From Steroidobacteraceae bacterium (lineage in GTDB: Bacteria; Pseudomonadota; Gammaproteobacteria; Steroidobacterales; Steroidobacteraceae): a stretch of 64,000 bases of DNA. The notes under the pieces were generated by a model. The model did not search any database. It was not told the DNA's origin and worked only from the letters and a program-made list of their open reading frames with translations. Both the position numbers and the translations under genes were made by a program. Of the stretch, positions 52,601 through 60,614 are shown one piece after another; the first letter of the stretch is position 1; each line of letters starts with the position of its first letter. The DNA lies in the NCBI GenBank assembly GCA_025451275.1, contig JANWKR010000091.1:1-64000 (forward strand), written 5' to 3'.

Positions 52601-55063
52601 TTAGAAGATCGGCTCGCTGTTCTGCTGCCCTTCCGGGCCCTGGGTGAGCGCGGCGTCCTGCGCTGAAGGCAGGTGGTTCACCATGAAGATCTCGGGTACG
52701 CCGTCCGCGTTCTCGGCCGACACGAGCGTGCCGGTCTCGGGCGAGATGCGCAAGGTGACGAGCCCGTCCGGCATGGTGCGCGGCTGCTCCGGCACGCCCT
52801 TGAGCGCTTCCTTCATGAACTCGATCCAGATCGGCAGCGCGGTGCGCGCGCCTTCCTCGGCCTCGCCCAGCGGCCGCTCCTGGTCGAAACCCACCCACAC
52901 GGTGGCGACGAGGTTGCGGGTGAAGCCGTTGAACCAGGTGTCCTTGGCCTCGTTGGTGGTGCCGGTCTTGCCGGCGATGTCGCTGCGCCCGAGCGCCAGG
53001 GCGCGCCGCCCGGTGCCGCGCTTGATGACGTCCGCCATCATGTCGGCCATGAGATAGGCGTTCTGTGCGCTGATGACCCGCGGCGCCACCTGCGTGGCGG
53101 GCAGCGGCGCAGGTTCTCCGTGCTCGCCGGCCGGCGCCGCGCGCGCCGGCTCGGACACCCGCACCGGGGCGGCGCTCTGCTGAGCCGGCTCGCCCGGCTG
53201 GCCGTCATCGCACTGCTGGCACACCATGCGCGGTGCGGCCTGCCACACCACCTGCCCGGCGGCGTCCTCGATGCGGTCGATGAAGTAGGGCGCGACGCGG
53301 TAGCCGCCGTTGGCGAACACCGCGTAGCCGCTGGCGACGTCGAGCGGCGTGGCCTCGAGCGTGCCGAGGGCGAGCGTCAGGTCGTGCGGCATGCTCTTGG
53401 GATCGAAGCCGAAGCGGCTGATGTAGTCGATGGCGGTCGGGATGCCGATCGCCTTGAGCACGCGGATCGAGACCAGGTTGCGCGAACGCACCAGCGCCTC
53501 GCGCAGCCGCGTCGGGCCGCCGAACTCCTTGGTGGAGTTCTCGGGACGCCAGGAGTCCTCGTTGCCGTTGCCCTCGAGCACGATGGGGGCATCCAGCAGC
53601 ACGGTCGCCGGCGTCAGGCCGTTCTCGAGCGCCGCCGAGTACAGGAACGGTTTGAATCCCGAGCCCGGCAGGCGCCGCGCCTGGGTGACGCGGTTGTACT
53701 TGTTGGTGAAGTAGTCGAAGCCGCCGACCAGCGCCACGATGCTGCCGTCGTTCGGGTCGAGTGCCACCAGCGCGCTCTGCGCCTCGGGGATCTGGCCGAG
53801 CTGCGCGTGCCCCTTGTCGTCGGCCACCACGTACACGACGTCGCCGCGCGCGAGTACCTGGGAGGCATCCTTGGGGGCCGGTCCGAGTGTCTCGTTGCGC
53901 AGCTCCTTGCGCGCCCACGACAGGCCGTCCCACTCGATCTCCACCGGTCCCAGCGACTTCACGTACGCCTTTACCGTCCGGTCGTTGACCGCGGTTACCA
54001 CTGCCGGGGCGAGATTGCCGATCCCGGCGTACTCGTCCACCAGGTCGTCGTAGTCCGGCTCGCCGTGCGCGGGCAGGTCGACGTGCCCGGCCGGCCCGCG
54101 CCAGCCGTGGCGGCGGTCGTACTCGATGAGCCCGACGCGCACCGCGCGGTTGGCGGCCGTCTGCAGCCGCCCGTCGATGGTGGTGTAGACCTTGTAGCCG
54201 GCGGTTTCGGCCGCCGGGCCGAAGCGCTGGCGCAGCTCGAGGCGCGCCATTTCCGCGACGTACGGCGCTTCGACGTCAAACAGCGGCGCGTGCGCGCGTG
54301 CCTGCATCGGCTCCTTGTTGGCGGCCTCGGCGGTCGCGGCGTCGATGTAGCCGAGCTCGCGCATGCGCCGCAGCACGTAGGCGCGGCGCTGCGTGGCGGC
54401 CTGCGCATCGACGATGGGATTGAAGCGCGACGGCGCCTTGGGCACGCCGGCGATGGTGGCCGCTTCGGCGACGTCGAGCTTGTCGAGCGTCTTGCCGAAG
54501 AAGGCCTCGGCCGCCGCCGCCACGCCGTAGGAGCGCTGGCCGAAGAAGATGACGTTCAGGTACAGGCCGAAGATCTCCTGCTTCGTGAACTCGTGCTCCA
54601 TGCGATAGGTGACGAAAGTCTCCTGCAGCTTGCGGCGCGCGGTCTTGTCGAGCGTGAGGAACATGTTGCGCGCCGCCTGCATGGTGATGGTGCTCGCGCC
54701 CTGGGTCTTCTCGCCGGAGATGACATCGATGAGCGCGGCGCGCACTACGCCGAAGTAGTCGATGCCGTGGTGCTCGAAGAAGCGCTCGTCTTCGGCGGCG
54801 AGGAAGGCATGTTTGACGACCTCGGGAATCTGGTCGTAGGTCACCGGGATGCGGCGCTGCTCGCCGATCTGCGCGATCAGCTTGCCGGTGCGCGTGTACA
54901 CACGCAGCGGCACCTGCAGTTCGACGTTGCGCATGGCGTCGAGCGACGGCAACGACGGCACGAGATACACGTAGCCGCACGCCAGTGCGTAGGCGCCAAG
55001 AAGTGTGACGAGGATCACACCGCCGGCGGCGAGCGCCCCGAATCGAAACCAATTCCATTTCAC
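52601..55063 (-). CDS. mrcA: Penicillin-binding protein 1A (class A, bifunctional)
   Basis: An inner-membrane peptidoglycan glycosyltransferase/transpeptidase (820 residues). Membrane anchor about 7-30. GT51 domain: EDERFFEHHGIDYFGVVRA with the catalytic Glu, GASTITMQAARNMFLT, KIFGLYLN-like EIFGLYLNVIFFGQRSYG. An OB-like insertion (about 320-400) follows, then the transpeptidase with SxxK in LPGSGFKPFLYSAAL, SxN in VRSRNLVSIR and KTG in AGKTGTTNEAKDTWFNGF. GTG start at 55063. It is divergent from pilMNOPQ, the same arrangement as ponA-pilM in pseudomonads. Confidence 0.95.
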   Translation of the reverse strand: MKWNWFRFGALAAGGVILVTLLGAYALACGYVYLVPSLPSLDAMRNVELQVPLRVYTRTGKLIAQIGEQRRIPVTYDQIPEVVKHAFLAAEDERFFEHHGIDYFGVVRAALIDVISGEKTQGASTITMQAARNMFLTLDKTARRKLQETFVTYRMEHEFTKQEIFGLYLNVIFFGQRSYGVAAAAEAFFGKTLDKLDVAEAATIAGVPKAPSRFNPIVDAQAATQRRAYVLRRMRELGYIDAATAEAANKEPMQARAHAPLFDVEAPYVAEMARLELRQRFGPAAETAGYKVYTTIDGRLQTAANRAVRVGLIEYDRRHGWRGPAGHVDLPAHGEPDYDDLVDEYAGIGNLAPAVVTAVNDRTVKAYVKSLGPVEIEWDGLSWARKELRNETLGPAPKDASQVLARGDVVYVVADDKGHAQLGQIPEAQSALVALDPNDGSIVALVGGFDYFTNKYNRVTQARRLPGSGFKPFLYSAALENGLTPATVLLDAPIVLEGNGNEDSWRPENSTKEFGGPTRLREALVRSRNLVSIRVLKAIGIPTAIDYISRFGFDPKSMPHDLTLALGTLEATPLDVASGYAVFANGGYRVAPYFIDRIEDAAGQVVWQAAPRMVCQQCDDGQPGEPAQQSAAPVRVSEPARAAPAGEHGEPAPLPATQVAPRVISAQNAYLMADMMADVIKRGTGRRALALGRSDIAGKTGTTNEAKDTWFNGFTRNLVATVWVGFDQERPLGEAEEGARTALPIWIEFMKEALKGVPEQPRTMPDGLVTLRISPETGTLVSAENADGVPEIFMVNHLPSAQDAALTQGPEGQQNSEPIF

Positions 55064-55117
55064 AAAAAACCAACTCCGTTGCTTGCGCTAGCTTCGGGGG
55101 CTATGCATAGTAGCCGC

Positions 55118-55206
55118 CGATTCTTGGGCAAACTCACCGAAAGGTGGGGACGCAAAGCCTCCGGTCTACGGGTCACGTGCCTATGACAGCGGGGTTGCCG
55201 GTTCGA
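55118..55206 (+). promoter_or_regulatory. Cyclic di-GMP-I (GEMM-I) riboswitch aptamer
   Basis: All hallmark elements are present in order. GGGCAAAC at 55126-55133 is followed by P2 with a GAAA tetraloop (CACC-GAAA-GGTG, 55135-55146). Next come GGGACGCAAAGCC at 55146-55158, the P3 arm, and GCGGGGTTGCCGG at 55189-55201. Position 55128, equivalent to G20 of the Vibrio Vc2 aptamer, is G, the base linked to c-di-GMP rather than cAMP-GMP preference. It is oriented towards pilMNOPQ, starting about 420 bases before the pilM ATG. It probably ties pilus assembly genes to c-di-GMP. No neat terminator directly follows the aptamer. Confidence 0.93.
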
Positions 55207-55503
55207 ACGTTAACGCACTCCGATCCGACGGGCCATGACGCCCTCGAGAGACGCGAGACCACGCTCGACCGACCGACTCGTATGCACTCCGCCCGCTTCC
55301 GCGAGGCTTTTGACGTCCCCTAGAGGACGCTTGGACAAGTCGCAGCCGCATAGGTTGAACCCCCGCCCCCAGGGGGGGTCGCGTGACACTCCCGGCACGG
55401 TCGACGCACCGTGGCGGAGCAGCGTGCGGTTCCGTGAGCCGCCTCACGTTCAATTTGACAGTGCGCTGATATATAGTGTCTCCGGATTTATACAGGGCGG
55501 TCA
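55207..55503 (+). other. Long leader between riboswitch and pilM, no supported gene
   Basis: About 300 bases with no convincing coding frame. It holds a C5/G-run hairpin around 55360-55378 and a TTGACA at 55455-55460 whose AT-rich follow-up (TATATAGT, 55470-55477) is too close for a normal -10. A second promoter or an expression platform could lie here; I cannot decide which. Confidence 0.5.
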
Positions 55504-55530
55504 TTTTCAGGCGTAAACACCTGAAAAGGA
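55504..55530 (+). promoter_or_regulatory. pilM: Hairpin over the pilM Shine-Dalgarno
   Basis: TTTTCAGG (55504-55511) pairs perfectly with CCTGAAAA (55520-55527) across an 8-base loop. The right arm runs into the AAGGA (55526-55530) that lies eight bases before the pilM ATG. It could limit ribosome access. Confidence 0.6.
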
Positions 55531-55538
55531 AATAAAAA

Positions 55539-56603
55539 ATGTTCCTTCTCCAGCGCAAGTACCGCCCCATCCTGGGACTCGATATAACGACCTCGTCGGT
55601 CAAACTTATCGAGCTCGCCATGGCGGGGGGCCAGTACCGGGTGGAGGCCTATGCGGCCGAGCCCACGCCCCAGAACGCCATCAATGAAAAGGCGATCGTG
55701 GACGCGGACGCGGTGGGCGAGGCGATCCGCCGCGCCGTCAAGCGCGCCGGCGCCAAGAGCGGCGATGTGGCGGTGGCGATCTCCGGCGATGCGGCGATCA
55801 CCAAGGTGATCCAGATGCCGCGCGCGCTGCGCGCCGGCGATCTCGAAGCGCAAGTCGAGATGCAGGCCGACCAGTACATCCCCTTCCCCATGGACGAGGT
55901 GTCGTACGACTTCGAGGTGCTGGGCCCGAACGACAAGGACCCGGACACTAACGACGTGCTGCTGGTCGCGACGCGCACCGAGAACGTCGAGCAGCGTCAG
56001 GCGGCCGTGAAGGCCGCAGGCCTCGCCGCCAAGATCGTCGACGTCGAGGCATTCGCGCTCGAGAACGCCTGCAAGCTGATGACGCACCAGATGCCCGACG
56101 GCGGCATCGACCGCGCCATCGCGGTTGTGGACTTCGGCGCCAGCAGCACCACCTTCAGCGTGCTGCGCAACCTTAAAGTGGTGTACACGCGCGACTTCGC
56201 TTTCGGCGGGCAGCAGCTCACTGAAGAGATCATGCGCACCTATGGCCTGGCGATGGAGGAGGCGGGGCGCGCCAAGAAGGAAGGCGGGCTGCCGGGCAAC
56301 TACCAGTCCGAGGTGCTCGATCCGTTCATCGACGACATGACGCAGCAGGTCAGCCGCTCGCTGCAGTTCTATCTCGCCTCCGGCTCGGGCCGTGAGCAGC
56401 CGGAGAAGATCCTGGTGTGCGGCGGCTGCGCCAACATCCCCGGAGTCGCCGAAGTGATTTCCAGCCGCGTCGGGATCTCGGCCGAGAAGGGCGACCCGCT
56501 CGGCCAGATGAAGCTGTCCTCGCGCGCCAAGGCGCAGGCAGTGCAACGCGACGCCACGGCGCTCCTGACCGCCTGTGGCCTCGCCCTGCGGAGTTTTGAC
56601 TGA
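55539..56603 (+). CDS. pilM: Type IV pilus assembly protein PilM
   Basis: A cytoplasmic actin-like ATPase that recruits PilN to the inner-membrane alignment complex (354 residues). ILGLDITTSSVKLIEL, AVVDFGASSTTFSVL and ILVCGGCANIPGVAEVI are the ATPase motifs; MPDEVSYDF-like PFPMDEVSYDFEVLG and the EEIMRTYGL segment are typical. The ATG is preceded by AAGGA embedded in a hairpin. First gene of pilMNOPQ, downstream of a c-di-GMP riboswitch. Confidence 0.96.
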   Translation: MFLLQRKYRPILGLDITTSSVKLIELAMAGGQYRVEAYAAEPTPQNAINEKAIVDADAVGEAIRRAVKRAGAKSGDVAVAISGDAAITKVIQMPRALRAGDLEAQVEMQADQYIPFPMDEVSYDFEVLGPNDKDPDTNDVLLVATRTENVEQRQAAVKAAGLAAKIVDVEAFALENACKLMTHQMPDGGIDRAIAVVDFGASSTTFSVLRNLKVVYTRDFAFGGQQLTEEIMRTYGLAMEEAGRAKKEGGLPGNYQSEVLDPFIDDMTQQVSRSLQFYLASGSGREQPEKILVCGGCANIPGVAEVISSRVGISAEKGDPLGQMKLSSRAKAQAVQRDATALLTACGLALRSFD

Positions 56604-56604
56604 C

Positions 56605-57222
56605 ATGCCGCGTATAAACCTGCTTCCCTGGCGCGAGGGCCAGCGCAAGGAGCGCAAGCTGGCGTTCCTGGTGTCGCTCGGCATCGCGGCGCTCGCCGCG
56701 GGCGTGACCGCCTTCGCCGCCTACCTGCTGTACGGCTCGATGATCGAGGGCCAGGAGCATCGCAACGCCGAGTTGCGCGTGCAGATCAAGACCCTCGACA
56801 AGCAGATCGAGGAGATCAACAGCCTCGAGAGCGAGAAACAGAAGTTCATCGCGCGCATGGAGATCATCGAGAAGCTGCAGCGCTCGCGGCCGGAGATCGT
56901 GCACGTGTTTGACGAGATCGTGCGCACCCTGCCCGAGGGCGTGTACCTGACCGCGGTGAAGCAGTCGGGGAACAAGGTGAAGTTCGATGGCATCGCGCAG
57001 TCCTCGACGCGCGTGTCCTCCTTCATGCGCAACATCGACGGCTCGCAGTGGCTGCGTAACCCGGAGCTGCTGGTGGTGCAGACCGTGAAGGGCTCGGGTC
57101 CCGGCTCCAGCTTCACGCTCACCGCCGACCAGGTCTCCAACGTCTCCCCGGACAGCGACGCCACCAAGGCCGCCAAGGGCAAGATCCGCAAGGCGAGCGC
57201 GGGCGCGGGGGTGCGGCAATGA
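56605..57222 (+). CDS. pilN: Type IV pilus assembly protein PilN
   Basis: 205 residues: the short cytoplasmic tail MPRINLLPWRE (the INLLPWR motif that docks into PilM), one helix (about 20-42), a coiled coil (LRVQIKTLDKQIEEINSLESEKQ) and a periplasmic ferredoxin-like domain. It starts one base after the pilM stop. Its TGA overlaps the pilO ATG (ATGA). Confidence 0.95.
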   Translation: MPRINLLPWREGQRKERKLAFLVSLGIAALAAGVTAFAAYLLYGSMIEGQEHRNAELRVQIKTLDKQIEEINSLESEKQKFIARMEIIEKLQRSRPEIVHVFDEIVRTLPEGVYLTAVKQSGNKVKFDGIAQSSTRVSSFMRNIDGSQWLRNPELLVVQTVKGSGPGSSFTLTADQVSNVSPDSDATKAAKGKIRKASAGAGVRQ

Positions 57223-57878
57223 ACCTCCTCGAAGAAATCCGCTCACTCGACCCGCGCGATCCGGGGCGCTGGCCGCTGCCGTTCCGTGCCGGCGCGGTGG
57301 CACTGGCGTTCGTGGTCATCGCGCTCGGACTCTTCTAGGTGTTCGTGTGGAACGACCCGCGCCCGGAGCTGCAGCGCCGGCAGGCCGAGGAGCTGGCCCT
57401 GCGGCAGGAGTTCCACGACAAGCATGCCAAGGCGGTCAACCTCGAGGTCTACAAGCAGCAGCTGAAGGACATCGAGCGCTCCTTCGGTGCGCTGCTGCGG
57501 CAGCTGCCGGGCAAGACCGAGGTGCCGAGCCTGCTGGTGGACATCTCGCAGACCGGTCTCGCGGCCGGCCTGCAGGAGAAACTGTTCCAGCCCGAGGCCG
57601 AGCAGAAGAAGGACTTCTACGCCGAGCTGCCCATCAAGATCCGCCTGAGCGGCAGCTATCACCAGTTCGGTGAGTTCGTGAGCGGCATCGCGGCGCTGCC
57701 GCGCATCGTCACGCTGCACGACATCGACATCAAGTCCGACAGCAAGGACGCCTACGACCAGTTGTCGCTCGAGCTCACGGCCAAGACCTATCGCTACATG
57801 GACGAGGACGAGATCGCCGCGGGCGAGGCGGACAAGAAGAAGGACGTCGTCCATCGTCCGCGACCGGCGGGGGGCTGA
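57219..57878 (+). pseudogene. pilO: PilO gene interrupted by an in-frame TAG at codon 40
   Basis: The ATG at 57219, overlapping the pilN stop, begins MNLLEEIRSLDPRDPGRWPL and enters the membrane helix (VALAFVVIALGLF), where TAG occurs at 57336-57338. The same frame then continues VFVWNDPRPELQRRQAEELA, through the coiled coil and the periplasmic PilO domain, to TGA 57876-57878 with no further break. Read through, the product would have 219 residues, normal for PilO. A TAC-to-TAG change would explain it. A GTG (57339) follows directly and could restart, but that product would lack the cytoplasmic tail and most of the helix. Nonsense mutation, sequencing error and suppression remain open. Confidence 0.85.
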
Positions 57879-57883
57879 CGCAC

Positions 57884-58438
57884 ATGATGCGCGCACGATA
57901 TTCCATGCATAGGCTTTCCTCATCGCCGACCGGACTGCGCCTGCTGTGCGTGGCGCTCGCCTGCGTGTACGCGGGGCTGACCGCCTGCTCCAGCGCCGAC
58001 GACGAGCTGCAGCGCTTCATCGAGGACACGAAGAAGGAGCCGGGCGGGCGCGTCGAACCCATCCCGGAGATCAAGCCCTACGAAAGCTTCGTGTATTCGG
58101 CTTCCGACATGCGCTCGCCGTTCCTGCCCAGCAGCCCGGGTTCGGGCGCGGGCCTGGCCGGCATCCGCCCGGACCAGAAGCGCAACCGCGAATTCCTCGA
58201 GCAGTACTCGCTCGACACGCTGAGGATGGTTGGCACGCTGAGACTCGGCGGCCAGATGTACGGCCTGGTCGAGACCAAGGACGGCCTCGTGCACCGCGTG
58301 AGCGCGGGCAACCACATGGGTCAGGCCGAGGGCAAGATTACCGAGATCACACCTTCCAAGATCAGTCTCATCGAAATCGTTCCGGACAGTCTCGGCGGCT
58401 ACATGGAGCGCCCCGCCGCGCTCGGCCTGAACGAGTAA
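57884..58438 (+). CDS. pilP: Type IV pilus lipoprotein PilP
   Basis: 184 residues. Lipoprotein signal with lipobox LTAC (Cys near residue 35), then a flexible stretch with EPIPEIKPYESFVYSASDMRSPF, the segment that contacts PilN/PilO. The C-terminal beta-domain (LDTLRMVGTLRLGGQMYGLV to KISLIEIVPDSLGGYMERPA) binds the PilQ N-domains. Three in-frame ATGs are possible starts (57884, 57887, 57905); the last gives a more usual signal length. Confidence 0.93.
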   Translation: MMRARYSMHRLSSSPTGLRLLCVALACVYAGLTACSSADDELQRFIEDTKKEPGGRVEPIPEIKPYESFVYSASDMRSPFLPSSPGSGAGLAGIRPDQKRNREFLEQYSLDTLRMVGTLRLGGQMYGLVETKDGLVHRVSAGNHMGQAEGKITEITPSKISLIEIVPDSLGGYMERPAALGLNE

Positions 58439-58460: not shown

Positions 58461-60614
58461 ATGCATGCGTCTAGCCTGATTAATCGTCTCCTCGGCGCGG
58501 CTGCCACCGCCCTGCTCGCAGGAGTACTCGGCTTGGCAGCGGGAACCCCGGCGCGTGCCGCGGACCACCCCGCGCTGCAGGCCATCGACGTGCAGCCCCT
58601 GCCCGGACAGCAGCTGCAGGTCACCATGCGCCTGTCGGGGCCGGCCCCGCAGCCGCTGTCGTTCACGATCGACAATCCGGCGCGCATTTCCTTCGACCTG
58701 CCGAACACGACGCTGGCGCTGCCCTCGCGGCGCATCGACGTGCACGCCGCCGGGCTCGACACCATCGTCGCGGCCGAAACCAAGGACCGTACGCGCCTGG
58801 TGCTGAACCTCGACAAGCTGGTGCCGTACGACACGCGCGTGCAGGGCAACGACGTCATCGTCATGCTCGGCACCGGCAATGCCACCTCCAACGCCCAGGC
58901 GGCCACCGCCGCGGCGACCACGGCCGCCACCGGCAGCAGCGCGCGCGAGCTGCGCGCCATCGACTTCCGCCGCAGCGCCGACGGCGCCGGGCGCGTGGTG
59001 GTGAAGCTCTCCGACCCGCACATCCACATCAACCTGCACCAGCTCGGCAGCCAGATCGTGGTCGACTTCTCCGATGCCAGCGTGCCGGCCAACCTGGTGC
59101 GCCGCTACGACGCCACCGATTACGGCACGCCGGTCAACGGTTTCGACGTGACCCGCGTCGGCAACGGCTCACGCATCGCCATCACCGCGAGCGGCGACTT
59201 CGAGCAGCTCGCCTACCAGTCGGACGACCAGTACGTGGTCGAGGTGGCGCCGCGCCGCAAGGCGCTGAACGTGGCCGACGAAAAGCCGGTGTACACCGGC
59301 GAGCGGCTGACGCTCAACTTCCAGGACATCGAGACGCGCGCCGTGCTGCAGCTGCTGGCTGACGCCAGCGGCCAGAACATCGTGGTCAGCGACTCGGTGA
59401 GCGGCAACGTCACGCTGCGCCTGCAGAACGTGCCCTGGGACCAGGCGCTGGATATCGTGCTGCGCACCAAGGGCCTCGACAAACGCAAGCAGGACAACGT
59501 CATCATCGTCGCGCCGCAGGCCGAGCTGGCGGCACGCGAGAAGGCGGAGCTGGCGGCCAGGAAGGACGTGCAGGAACTCGCGCCGCTGCGCTCCGAGTAC
59601 CTGCAGGTTAACTACGCCAAGGCCTCAGACATGGCGGCGCTCATCAAGACGCAGACCAACTCACTGCTGTCGCCGCGCGGCAGCGTGGCGGTCGATGAGC
59701 GCACCAACACCCTGCTGGTGCAGGACACCAACGACCGCCTCACCGACATCCGCCGCCTGGTGGCGACCCTCGACATCCCGGTTCGCCAGGTGCTGATCGA
59801 GGCGCGCATCGTGATCGTCAACAACGATTTCGAGCGCCAGCTGGGCGCGCGCTTCGGCTTCACCAACTTCCAGAAGAACGGCAACACCGGCCTGGTCACC
59901 ACCACCGGCACGGCGGCCGGTACCGACCTGGCGATCGGCTCGGCGCTGAGCAACGTGCAGAGCACCGGCTCGATCTTCCCGGTCTCGGTGCCGACCGGTT
60001 CGGCGGCCGCCAACCGCTACAACGTCAACCTGCCGGTCTCGAGCCCCGCCGGCTCGATCGCCTTCGGCATCCTCGGCAACAACTTCATCGTCGACCTCGA
60101 GCTGTCGGCGGCGCAGGCCGAGACCCAGGCGAACATCATCGCTTCGCCGCGCGTCATCACGGCGAACCAGAAGGAGGCGACGATCGAGCAGGGCGTGGAA
60201 ATCCCCTACCAGCAGTCGGCCTCGAGCGGTGCGACCACCATTCAGTTCAAGAAGGCGGAGCTGCTGCTGAAGGTGACGCCGCAGATCACCCCCGACAACC
60301 GCATCATCCTCGACCTCGACGTCAAGGACGACGCGGTCGGCACGGTGGTGGTGGCATCGGGCGGCGTGAACGTGCCCTCGATCGACACCCGCGAGGTCGC
60401 CACGCAGGTGCTGGTCAACGACGGCCAGACCGTGGTGCTCGGCGGTATCCTCACCACCACGCAGCGCGAGGACGACACCAAGGTTCCGTACCTCGGTGAC
60501 ATCCCGATCCTCGGTCACCTGTTCAAGAGCACCGACCACAAGGACAACAAGGACGAGCTCATGGTCTTCATCACCCCGAAGATCGTGCGCGAGGGCGTGA
60601 ACGTCTACAACTGA
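58461..60614 (+). CDS. pilQ: Type IV pilus secretin PilQ
   Basis: An outer-membrane secretin channel for the pilus (717 residues). Signal peptide about 1-34 (ending PARA). Two AMIN domains that bind peptidoglycan (about 40-140, FDLPNTTLALPSRRIDV; 165-265, ELRAIDFRRSADGAGRVVVKLSD). The STN/N0 domain is LTLNFQDIETRAVLQLLADASGQNIVVSD and the N1 domain YLQVNYAKASDMAALI. The secretin core ends VNDGQTVVLGGILTTTQREDDTKVPYLGDIPILGHLFKST. Complete. It is followed by a strong terminator, so the operon ends here. Confidence 0.96.
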   Translation: MHASSLINRLLGAAATALLAGVLGLAAGTPARAADHPALQAIDVQPLPGQQLQVTMRLSGPAPQPLSFTIDNPARISFDLPNTTLALPSRRIDVHAAGLDTIVAAETKDRTRLVLNLDKLVPYDTRVQGNDVIVMLGTGNATSNAQAATAAATTAATGSSARELRAIDFRRSADGAGRVVVKLSDPHIHINLHQLGSQIVVDFSDASVPANLVRRYDATDYGTPVNGFDVTRVGNGSRIAITASGDFEQLAYQSDDQYVVEVAPRRKALNVADEKPVYTGERLTLNFQDIETRAVLQLLADASGQNIVVSDSVSGNVTLRLQNVPWDQALDIVLRTKGLDKRKQDNVIIVAPQAELAAREKAELAARKDVQELAPLRSEYLQVNYAKASDMAALIKTQTNSLLSPRGSVAVDERTNTLLVQDTNDRLTDIRRLVATLDIPVRQVLIEARIVIVNNDFERQLGARFGFTNFQKNGNTGLVTTTGTAAGTDLAIGSALSNVQSTGSIFPVSVPTGSAAANRYNVNLPVSSPAGSIAFGILGNNFIVDLELSAAQAETQANIIASPRVITANQKEATIEQGVEIPYQQSASSGATTIQFKKAELLLKVTPQITPDNRIILDLDVKDDAVGTVVVASGGVNVPSIDTREVATQVLVNDGQTVVLGGILTTTQREDDTKVPYLGDIPILGHLFKSTDHKDNKDELMVFITPKIVREGVNVYN

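Follow-up and report, generated by a model that had tools for sequence, protein, structure and literature searches.

The pilMNOPQ operon in the 64,000-nucleotide stretch of DNA analysed here (the window) is probably served by two stacked promoters: an upstream one, P1, giving an aptamer-bearing RNA under the control of c-di-GMP, and a downstream one, P2, giving an aptamer-free mRNA under the control of cAMP-CRP. The GEMM-I aptamer, the motifs of the two promoters, which are conserved and spaced at near-fixed distances, and a gene for a cAMP-type CRP are all in place; we infer that P1 and P2 are both active, that transcripts from P1 extend into pilM and that c-di-GMP affects the run-through, in either direction. 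According to this scheme P1 (TTGCGC-N17-CATAGT) would start RNA at the aptamer, while P2, located between the aptamer and pilM and activated by CRP, would produce mRNA with an aptamer-free leader of ~55 nt. The P2 share of pilM mRNA would then be set by cAMP-CRP, and the amount of P1 RNA reaching pilM intact by c-di-GMP. The long gap between the aptamer and pilM is read here as mostly a second control element, common to many relatives. The features on which this reading is built are the following.

52601–55063, minus strand: divergent gene of the mrcA/ponA type for PBP1a, GTG start at 55063 (Pfam Transgly, Transpeptidase, PCB_OB).
55083–55088, plus strand: −35-like hexamer of P1, TTGCGC (counts of TTGN3-N17-CATNNT before the aptamer).
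55106–55111, plus strand: −10-like hexamer of P1, CATAGT, with a spacer of 17 (sequence, alignments, counts).
55117–55202, plus strand: c-di-GMP-I (GEMM-I) riboswitch aptamer (cmscan RF01051, 74.3 bits).
55203–55433, plus strand: variable spacer between the aptamer and P2.
55235–55516: open frame of 93 aa.
55291–55307, plus strand: weak terminator-like hairpin (−7.8 kcal/mol) followed by TTTT.
55434–55447, no strand assigned: CRP/Vfr-type box GTGAGCCGCCTCAC centred at 55440.5, a perfect GTGA-N6-TCAC (conservation in relatives).
55449–55454, plus strand: −35-like TTCAAT of P2, a weak match 17 bp before TATAGT (aligned with conserved TTC[AT]ATTT[AG]AC).
55467–55477, plus strand: −10 region of P2, TGATATATAGT (its distance from the box is nearly fixed among relatives).
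55504–55527, plus strand: inverted repeat TTTTCAGG-N8-CCTGAAAA, hairpin-capable in RNA, with exact arms at 55504–55511 and 55520–55527.
55526–55530, plus strand: ribosome-binding site of pilM, AAGGA (sequence).
55539–56603, plus strand: pilM (Pfam PilM_2, 421 bits; TIGR01175, 365.9 bits).
56605–57222, plus strand: pilN (Pfam PilN).
57339–57878, plus strand: pilO as a listed open frame, start codon provisional (Pfam PilO).
57884–58438, plus strand: pilP (Pfam PilP).
58461–60614, plus strand: pilQ secretin (Pfam Secretin, AMIN).

An earlier note on this DNA had placed a GEMM-I aptamer facing pilMNOPQ at 55118–55206. The operon, which encodes the anchoring apparatus of surface pili, was recognized by Pfam, and the covariance search with the Rfam GEMM-I model, which that note had proposed, returned a high-scoring match at this place (E 1e-12 over the 64-kb window, model positions 1–87 covered in full, gathering score 35 bits). 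It was the sole Rfam match at or above gathering score in the entire window, and a permissive search of 55000–55700 added only two matches, both far under their gathering scores (E 2.9 and 4.6). By sequence and structure the aptamer is assigned to the c-di-GMP-I (GEMM-I) class, with c-di-GMP as the predicted ligand. The unusually long gap pointed out earlier is real; it measures 336 nt from the aptamer end to the ATG (55203–55538), the previous figure of 332 being valid for a count from 55207.

The same gap was registered in relatives. A search with pilM as a query produced 80 loci, most of them from MAGs that bear the titles Gammaproteobacteria, Proteobacteria or Steroidobacteraceae; three of them (L030, L036, L066) had too short upstream DNA, and the near set with the window included comprises 78 loci. 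The aptamer core was found in 50 of these 78, at a distance of 276–442 nt from the start of the pilM match, and the long gap is therefore a property of the group. Nine of the 50 aptamers (in the window and eight other loci) were scored by cmscan and 41 were recognized by the GACGCAAAGC core and alignment, while cmscan of the 31 near loci without this core, the three short ones included, gave zero aptamer matches. Alignment of 35 sequences revealed four conserved blocks: TATGCATAGTA directly before the aptamer, the aptamer itself, a third block GTGA-N6-TCACGTTC[AT]ATTT[AG]AC..CTG[AT]TATATAGT, and a less strict fourth one running from TTTCAGGCGTAA to CCTGAAAAGGA. Between the aptamer and the third block near relatives have 141–296 nt of variable sequence.

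A wider survey covered 117 genomes of the order, 86 of which had pilM over the cut-off, and 80 upstream regions were taken; six were left out because of a contig edge or broken pilM, or as the window itself (G000, the window; G132, G078, G064, G026, G108), and two of those taken (L116 and L182) were too short to judge. Aptamers were detected by cmscan in 28 of the 80 regions; RF01051 was the best model for 27 of them and RF03167 for the one in L151. All share the strand of pilM, and their ends precede the PilM HMM match by 263–386 nt; in the window this match begins 30 nt within the gene. By family they are distributed as f1, 3; f4, 1; f6, 4; f10, 5; f11, 4; and f15, 11. The near and order sets overlap (e.g. 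G001, G002, G003, G090, G135), and counts given below for the two are not independent.

The transcription start of P1 is predicted at ~55118, one base into the aptamer match. Of the 28 order genomes with the aptamer, 27 have the pattern TTGN3-N17-CATNNT ahead of it (0.13 expected from shuffles); so do 43 of 49 near loci, in a single one of which the pattern is off position (0.12 expected). In its strict form P1 is present in 42 of 50 near loci with the aptamer (~0.2 in shuffles) versus only 2 of 28 without it (~0.1). Hexamers of P1, like those of P2, are weak, and a sigma-70 scan of 54900–55700 reported no promoters. In 12 of the aptamer-less near loci, inspected at full length, TGCATA[GT]T (the −10 element of P1) is absent together with the spacer motifs TTGGAC and CGTTGA. 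Two loci, L075 and L078, carry apparent decayed aptamers behind a P1-like sequence, L056 has P1 without the aptamer, and all three retain a perfect CRP/Vfr-type box. On the pilM tree of 78 rows the aptamer label needs at least 5 changes, two of them forced by starred branches, versus ~23 for shuffled labels; this count does not distinguish gain of the aptamer from its loss.

As the last of its options the earlier note had allowed for a second promoter in the leader, and comparative evidence supports it. Since GTGA-N6-TCAC occurs in the window three times (0.71 expected; 5 of 100 shuffles had as many), a single site says little without relatives; the other two matches fall within the frames of citrate synthase (51644) and PBP1a (55005). 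Within the expected 55-bp stretch the perfect 8/8 box was found in 41 of the 77 order regions that are at least 700 bp long, versus 0.08% of shuffles, and a box with at least 7/8 matches in 48 of 77 (2.4% of shuffles). Among near loci it is perfect in 64 of 78 (40 of the 50 aptamer-bearing and 24 of the 28 aptamer-less ones). The boxes of near loci contain 32 different N6 cores, which means that the half-sites are held while the core drifts; conserved half-sites with a free core are what one may expect of a class II site of CRP/Vfr. A pattern that joins the box to the sequence following it, GTGANNNNNNTCACGTTCNATTTNAC, has a single match in each of 7 of the 117 genomes and none in the reversed-pattern control. 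All seven matches are at pilM: six by coordinates, just upstream of the gene, and the seventh in G114, where the contig end overlaps the contig with pilM and the aptamer core is also present upstream.

The −10 region behind the box is conserved as well. In a neutral search its mean match in near loci was 4.67 of 6, compared with 2.61 for a control position 90 bp upstream; in the order set the corresponding means were 4.52 and 3.00. The distance from the box centre to the best −10 element was 29.5–31.5 in 57 of 64 near and 27 of 42 order loci by the same neutral search; a search with a TG bonus and a tie rule favoured 29.5, and without both of them the register 31.5 was found in 49 of 64. The window permits two registers, the extended −10 element TGATATATA or TATAGT at 55472–55477. 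With the P2 start predicted at ~55482–55484, the box centre would be at approximately −41.5 in the first case (register TATATA) or −43.5 in the second. At such a position the box would be spaced from the −10 region as in a class II promoter, and binding of CRP with activation of P2 is predicted.

The box is more common than the aptamer: it is perfect in 22 of the 50 order regions that lack the aptamer, among them 11 of the 12 from family f7. It is absent in its perfect form from the expected place in 10 of 50 near and 8 of 28 order loci with the aptamer, and in 28 of 50 order regions without it. Perfect boxes located farther upstream were observed 259–309 nt before the HMM start in families f16 (L144, L145, L156, L164), f5 (L115, L118, L122) and f9 (L162, L169), and 184–190 nt before it in three f11 genomes (L153, L157, L160). 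These have no aptamer and a different promoter layout.

The genome from which the window originates (completeness 81%) encodes, judging by sequence, a CRP of the cAMP type. Its protein matches NF008732 over the cut-off (312.5 bits) and resembles E. coli CRP (255.8 bits) and Vfr (252.3) more closely than 3iwz (211), a catabolite-activation-like protein that we take to be a Clp; a Clp-type c-di-GMP-binding activator of P2 was therefore set aside as less likely. In the alignment with E. coli CRP the GE and RSAWVR elements are kept, while T-S reads T-N. These positions presumably form the cAMP pocket of CRP, so that the T-N change would affect a pocket residue. Two matches to class III cyclase domains and 13 to GGDEF were found in the same genome, their enzymatic activities being predicted. 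The CRP frame of this genome (L100, 1441–2238) continues past the CRP match with an acidic tail, a run of Asp/Glu.

How c-di-GMP might decide the fate of P1 RNA is less evident. A simple scan for intrinsic terminators gave sites in 30 of 50 near loci versus 9.35 expected, 26 of the 30 being the CRP palindrome followed by TTC[AT]ATTT or TTCCATTT. Since the palindrome is kept in relatives without the aptamer, it was read as an operator and not as a terminator. From the aptamer end to the box terminator-like sites were found in 21 of 50 near loci, versus 29.5 from shuffles, which is no excess. The window is among these 21, its weak hairpin at 55291–55307 may act as a terminator, and sites of L004 and L031 are at a like distance. 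Consensus folding of the spacer by alifold gave −4.6 versus −0.5 ± 1.1 for shuffled columns, with few pairs and little conserved structure. Neither the terminator search (n = 50) nor alifold found a conserved switching element in the clade of the window. Family f15 has terminator-like sites in 10 of 11 spacers (6.3 expected), 14–35 nt before the place of the box in 8 of 11, and may possess an intrinsic terminator there. Rho-dependent termination in the C-rich spacer is, for the clade of the window, a guess. When the two strands of the spacer were compared by their highest C/G ratio over 78 nt, the sense strand had the larger value in 44 of 50 near loci, 10 of 11 in f15, 4 of 4 in f11, 3 of 3 in f1 and in the single f4, versus 0 of 5 for f10 and 2 of 4 for f6; such a bias of C over G fits Rho loading in part and does not prove it.

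The spacer of aptamer-bearing relatives also contains the recurrent motifs TTGGACAA and CATTCGTTGA (CATAGGTTGA in the window), located at 55331–55358 of the window. TTGGAC was found in 21 of 50 near loci with the aptamer (5.5 in shuffles) versus 0 of 28 without it (2.7), and CGTTGA in 13 of 50 (4.8) versus 0 of 28 (3.0).

If P1 transcripts stop before P2, the aptamer could be a short stand-alone RNA, either trans-acting or an inert binder of c-di-GMP, with pilM expressed from P2 alone. This does not require any read-through and agrees with the sites of f15 and the weak hairpin of the window. Yet the excess of terminators was not registered in the clade of the window, and all 28 order aptamers are on the pilM strand, within a narrow range of distances and in six families, as an RNA acting in trans need not be, an argument tempered by the fact that the survey covered only DNA upstream of pilM. 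We consider this explanation unlikely.

Another possibility was suggested by the inverted repeat adjacent to pilM. The perfect stem described previously is exact, and RNA 55499–55531 folds with −10 kcal/mol (z −3.1; 2 of 200 shuffles equal it). Its right arm does overlap AAGGA, sharing with it only A55526 and A55527; GGA lies beyond the stem, which makes the proposed masking of the ribosome site weak. In the helix predicted next to it, AAGGAA is paired with UUCCUU from codons 2–3 of pilM. The predicted 79-nt leader of P2 (55482–55560) as a whole folds as its shuffles do (z −0.1), and the entire leader 55117–55560 slightly better (z −1.8; 5 of 100). A stem with 7-base arms was found in 25 of 50 near loci with the aptamer and in 15 of 28 without it. 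As a candidate for a conserved RNA switch the hairpin was rejected: 78.5% of 200 cells are paired, and 65 of 500 shuffles are as high; covariation does not exceed that of shuffles, only 2 cells being changed on both sides and 43 unpaired, and 8 of 9 one-sided changes convert A-U to G-U. Pairing falls when the partner is slid, as is to be expected of a structure derived from a single sequence of this set.

The two-part leader of the earlier note, in which a single long P1 transcript allows the aptamer and the hairpin to act jointly on the ribosome site of pilM, fared poorly against these data. Both its elements are real, and distant masking of a ribosome site by a c-di-GMP riboswitch has reportedly a precedent, to judge by the title of Inuzuka 2018. 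Nevertheless, aptamer-less loci keep the stem in 15 of 28 cases and the box in 24 of 28, stem covariation is no greater than in shuffles, only two bases of the ribosome site are engaged, the spacer varies both in its length and in its sequence and has little structure in common among relatives, and P2 is situated between the aptamer and the hairpin. Such a gate is quite improbable, and the hairpin is best read as a part of the predicted P2 leader, separate from the riboswitch.

Very doubtful is also an old gate by which two messengers control type IV pili and in which cAMP-CRP and c-di-GMP would each own a promoter of pilMNOPQ and the riboswitch would meter polymerases reaching the downstream one, thus regulating it, because polymerases from P1 cross the CRP box. 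Least probable is the idea that unstopped P1 polymerases hinder P2 in crossing it, with c-di-GMP tuning P2 by transcription interference: P1, the aptamer and P2 are co-directed, the box is 133–272 nt past the aptamer in 40 near loci and P2 is more widespread than the aptamer, but the hexamers of P1 look weak and weak promoters interfere little.

The closest precedents for the stacked promoters are tfoY and gbpA of V. cholerae, compared here, like the other systems, on the basis of portions of the cited papers. For tfoY, which has the Vc2 GEMM-I aptamer and four promoters, only RNA from upstream promoters carries the aptamer, while promoters within or downstream of it give aptamer-free mRNA (PMC7371385). 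The bypass promoters of tfoY depend on a c-di-GMP-binding activator, VpsR (PMC7371385) or VpsT (PMC11218506), whereas the predicted bypass promoter of the window bears a CRP/Vfr-type box and would serve the pilus alignment operon. In the window a conserved promoter motif is present downstream of the aptamer, and aptamer-free mRNA is predicted. In the case of gbpA with its Vc1 GEMM-I aptamer, cAMP-CRP and c-di-GMP act on one gene (PMC4545359, PMC11218506, PMC4744006), but its CRP site is predicted to precede Vc1 (PMC4545359), so that CRP would drive the aptamer-bearing RNA; the low c-di-GMP effect was reported to be Vc1-independent (PMC4545359). In the window the order is opposite, with the box at 55434–55447 downstream of the aptamer at 55117–55202.

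A GEMM-I-class aptamer before the pilM operon is known in Geobacter metallireducens, but there it is a c-GAMP-sensing ON switch with aptamer-terminator competition (PMC9262584), whereas in the window no such conserved terminator was found and an extra promoter motif lies between the aptamer and pilM. The pilMNOPQ promoter of P. aeruginosa was reported to be Vfr-dependent, which implies CRP-family control of the same operon; the portions of this paper used here do not mention an aptamer (PMC12533971), and the likeness drawn here concerns the regulator. A long distance from aptamer to AUG, up to 220 bp, is also reported for Bc1 of B. thuringiensis, but that gap reportedly contains two intrinsic terminators (PMC11218506), while the gap of the window holds a predicted promoter. 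Both halves of the proposed arrangement have a precedent in tfoY and gbpA (PMC7371385, PMC4545359) and in Vfr control of pilMNOPQ (PMC12533971), and no description of a GEMM-I aptamer combined with a CRP promoter before pilM was found in the portions of open PMC papers that were searched.

Type IV pili are a meeting point of cAMP and c-di-GMP signalling in surface sensing; in P. aeruginosa, for instance, cAMP-Vfr drives pilus genes. The operon in the window seems to sense each of these messengers directly, cAMP by a promoter and c-di-GMP by an RNA sensor. This layout was found in six families of one order; in some relatives the promoter is kept while the RNA side is missing or looks decayed. 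Caution is also called for, as an aptamer located far upstream may not control most of the mRNA of its gene.

The same genome contains a second GEMM-type aptamer (G000 contig C19, 8504–8589, minus strand, equal to L001 1500–1585), for which the best model is c-di-GMP-I-GGC (RF03167, 74.9 bits) and which precedes an Ala/Pro-rich open frame. In some other genomes of the order GEMM-I aptamers are numerous (at least 21 in G030, at least 16 in G080 and at least 15 in G033), so that c-di-GMP riboswitch regulons may be large there.
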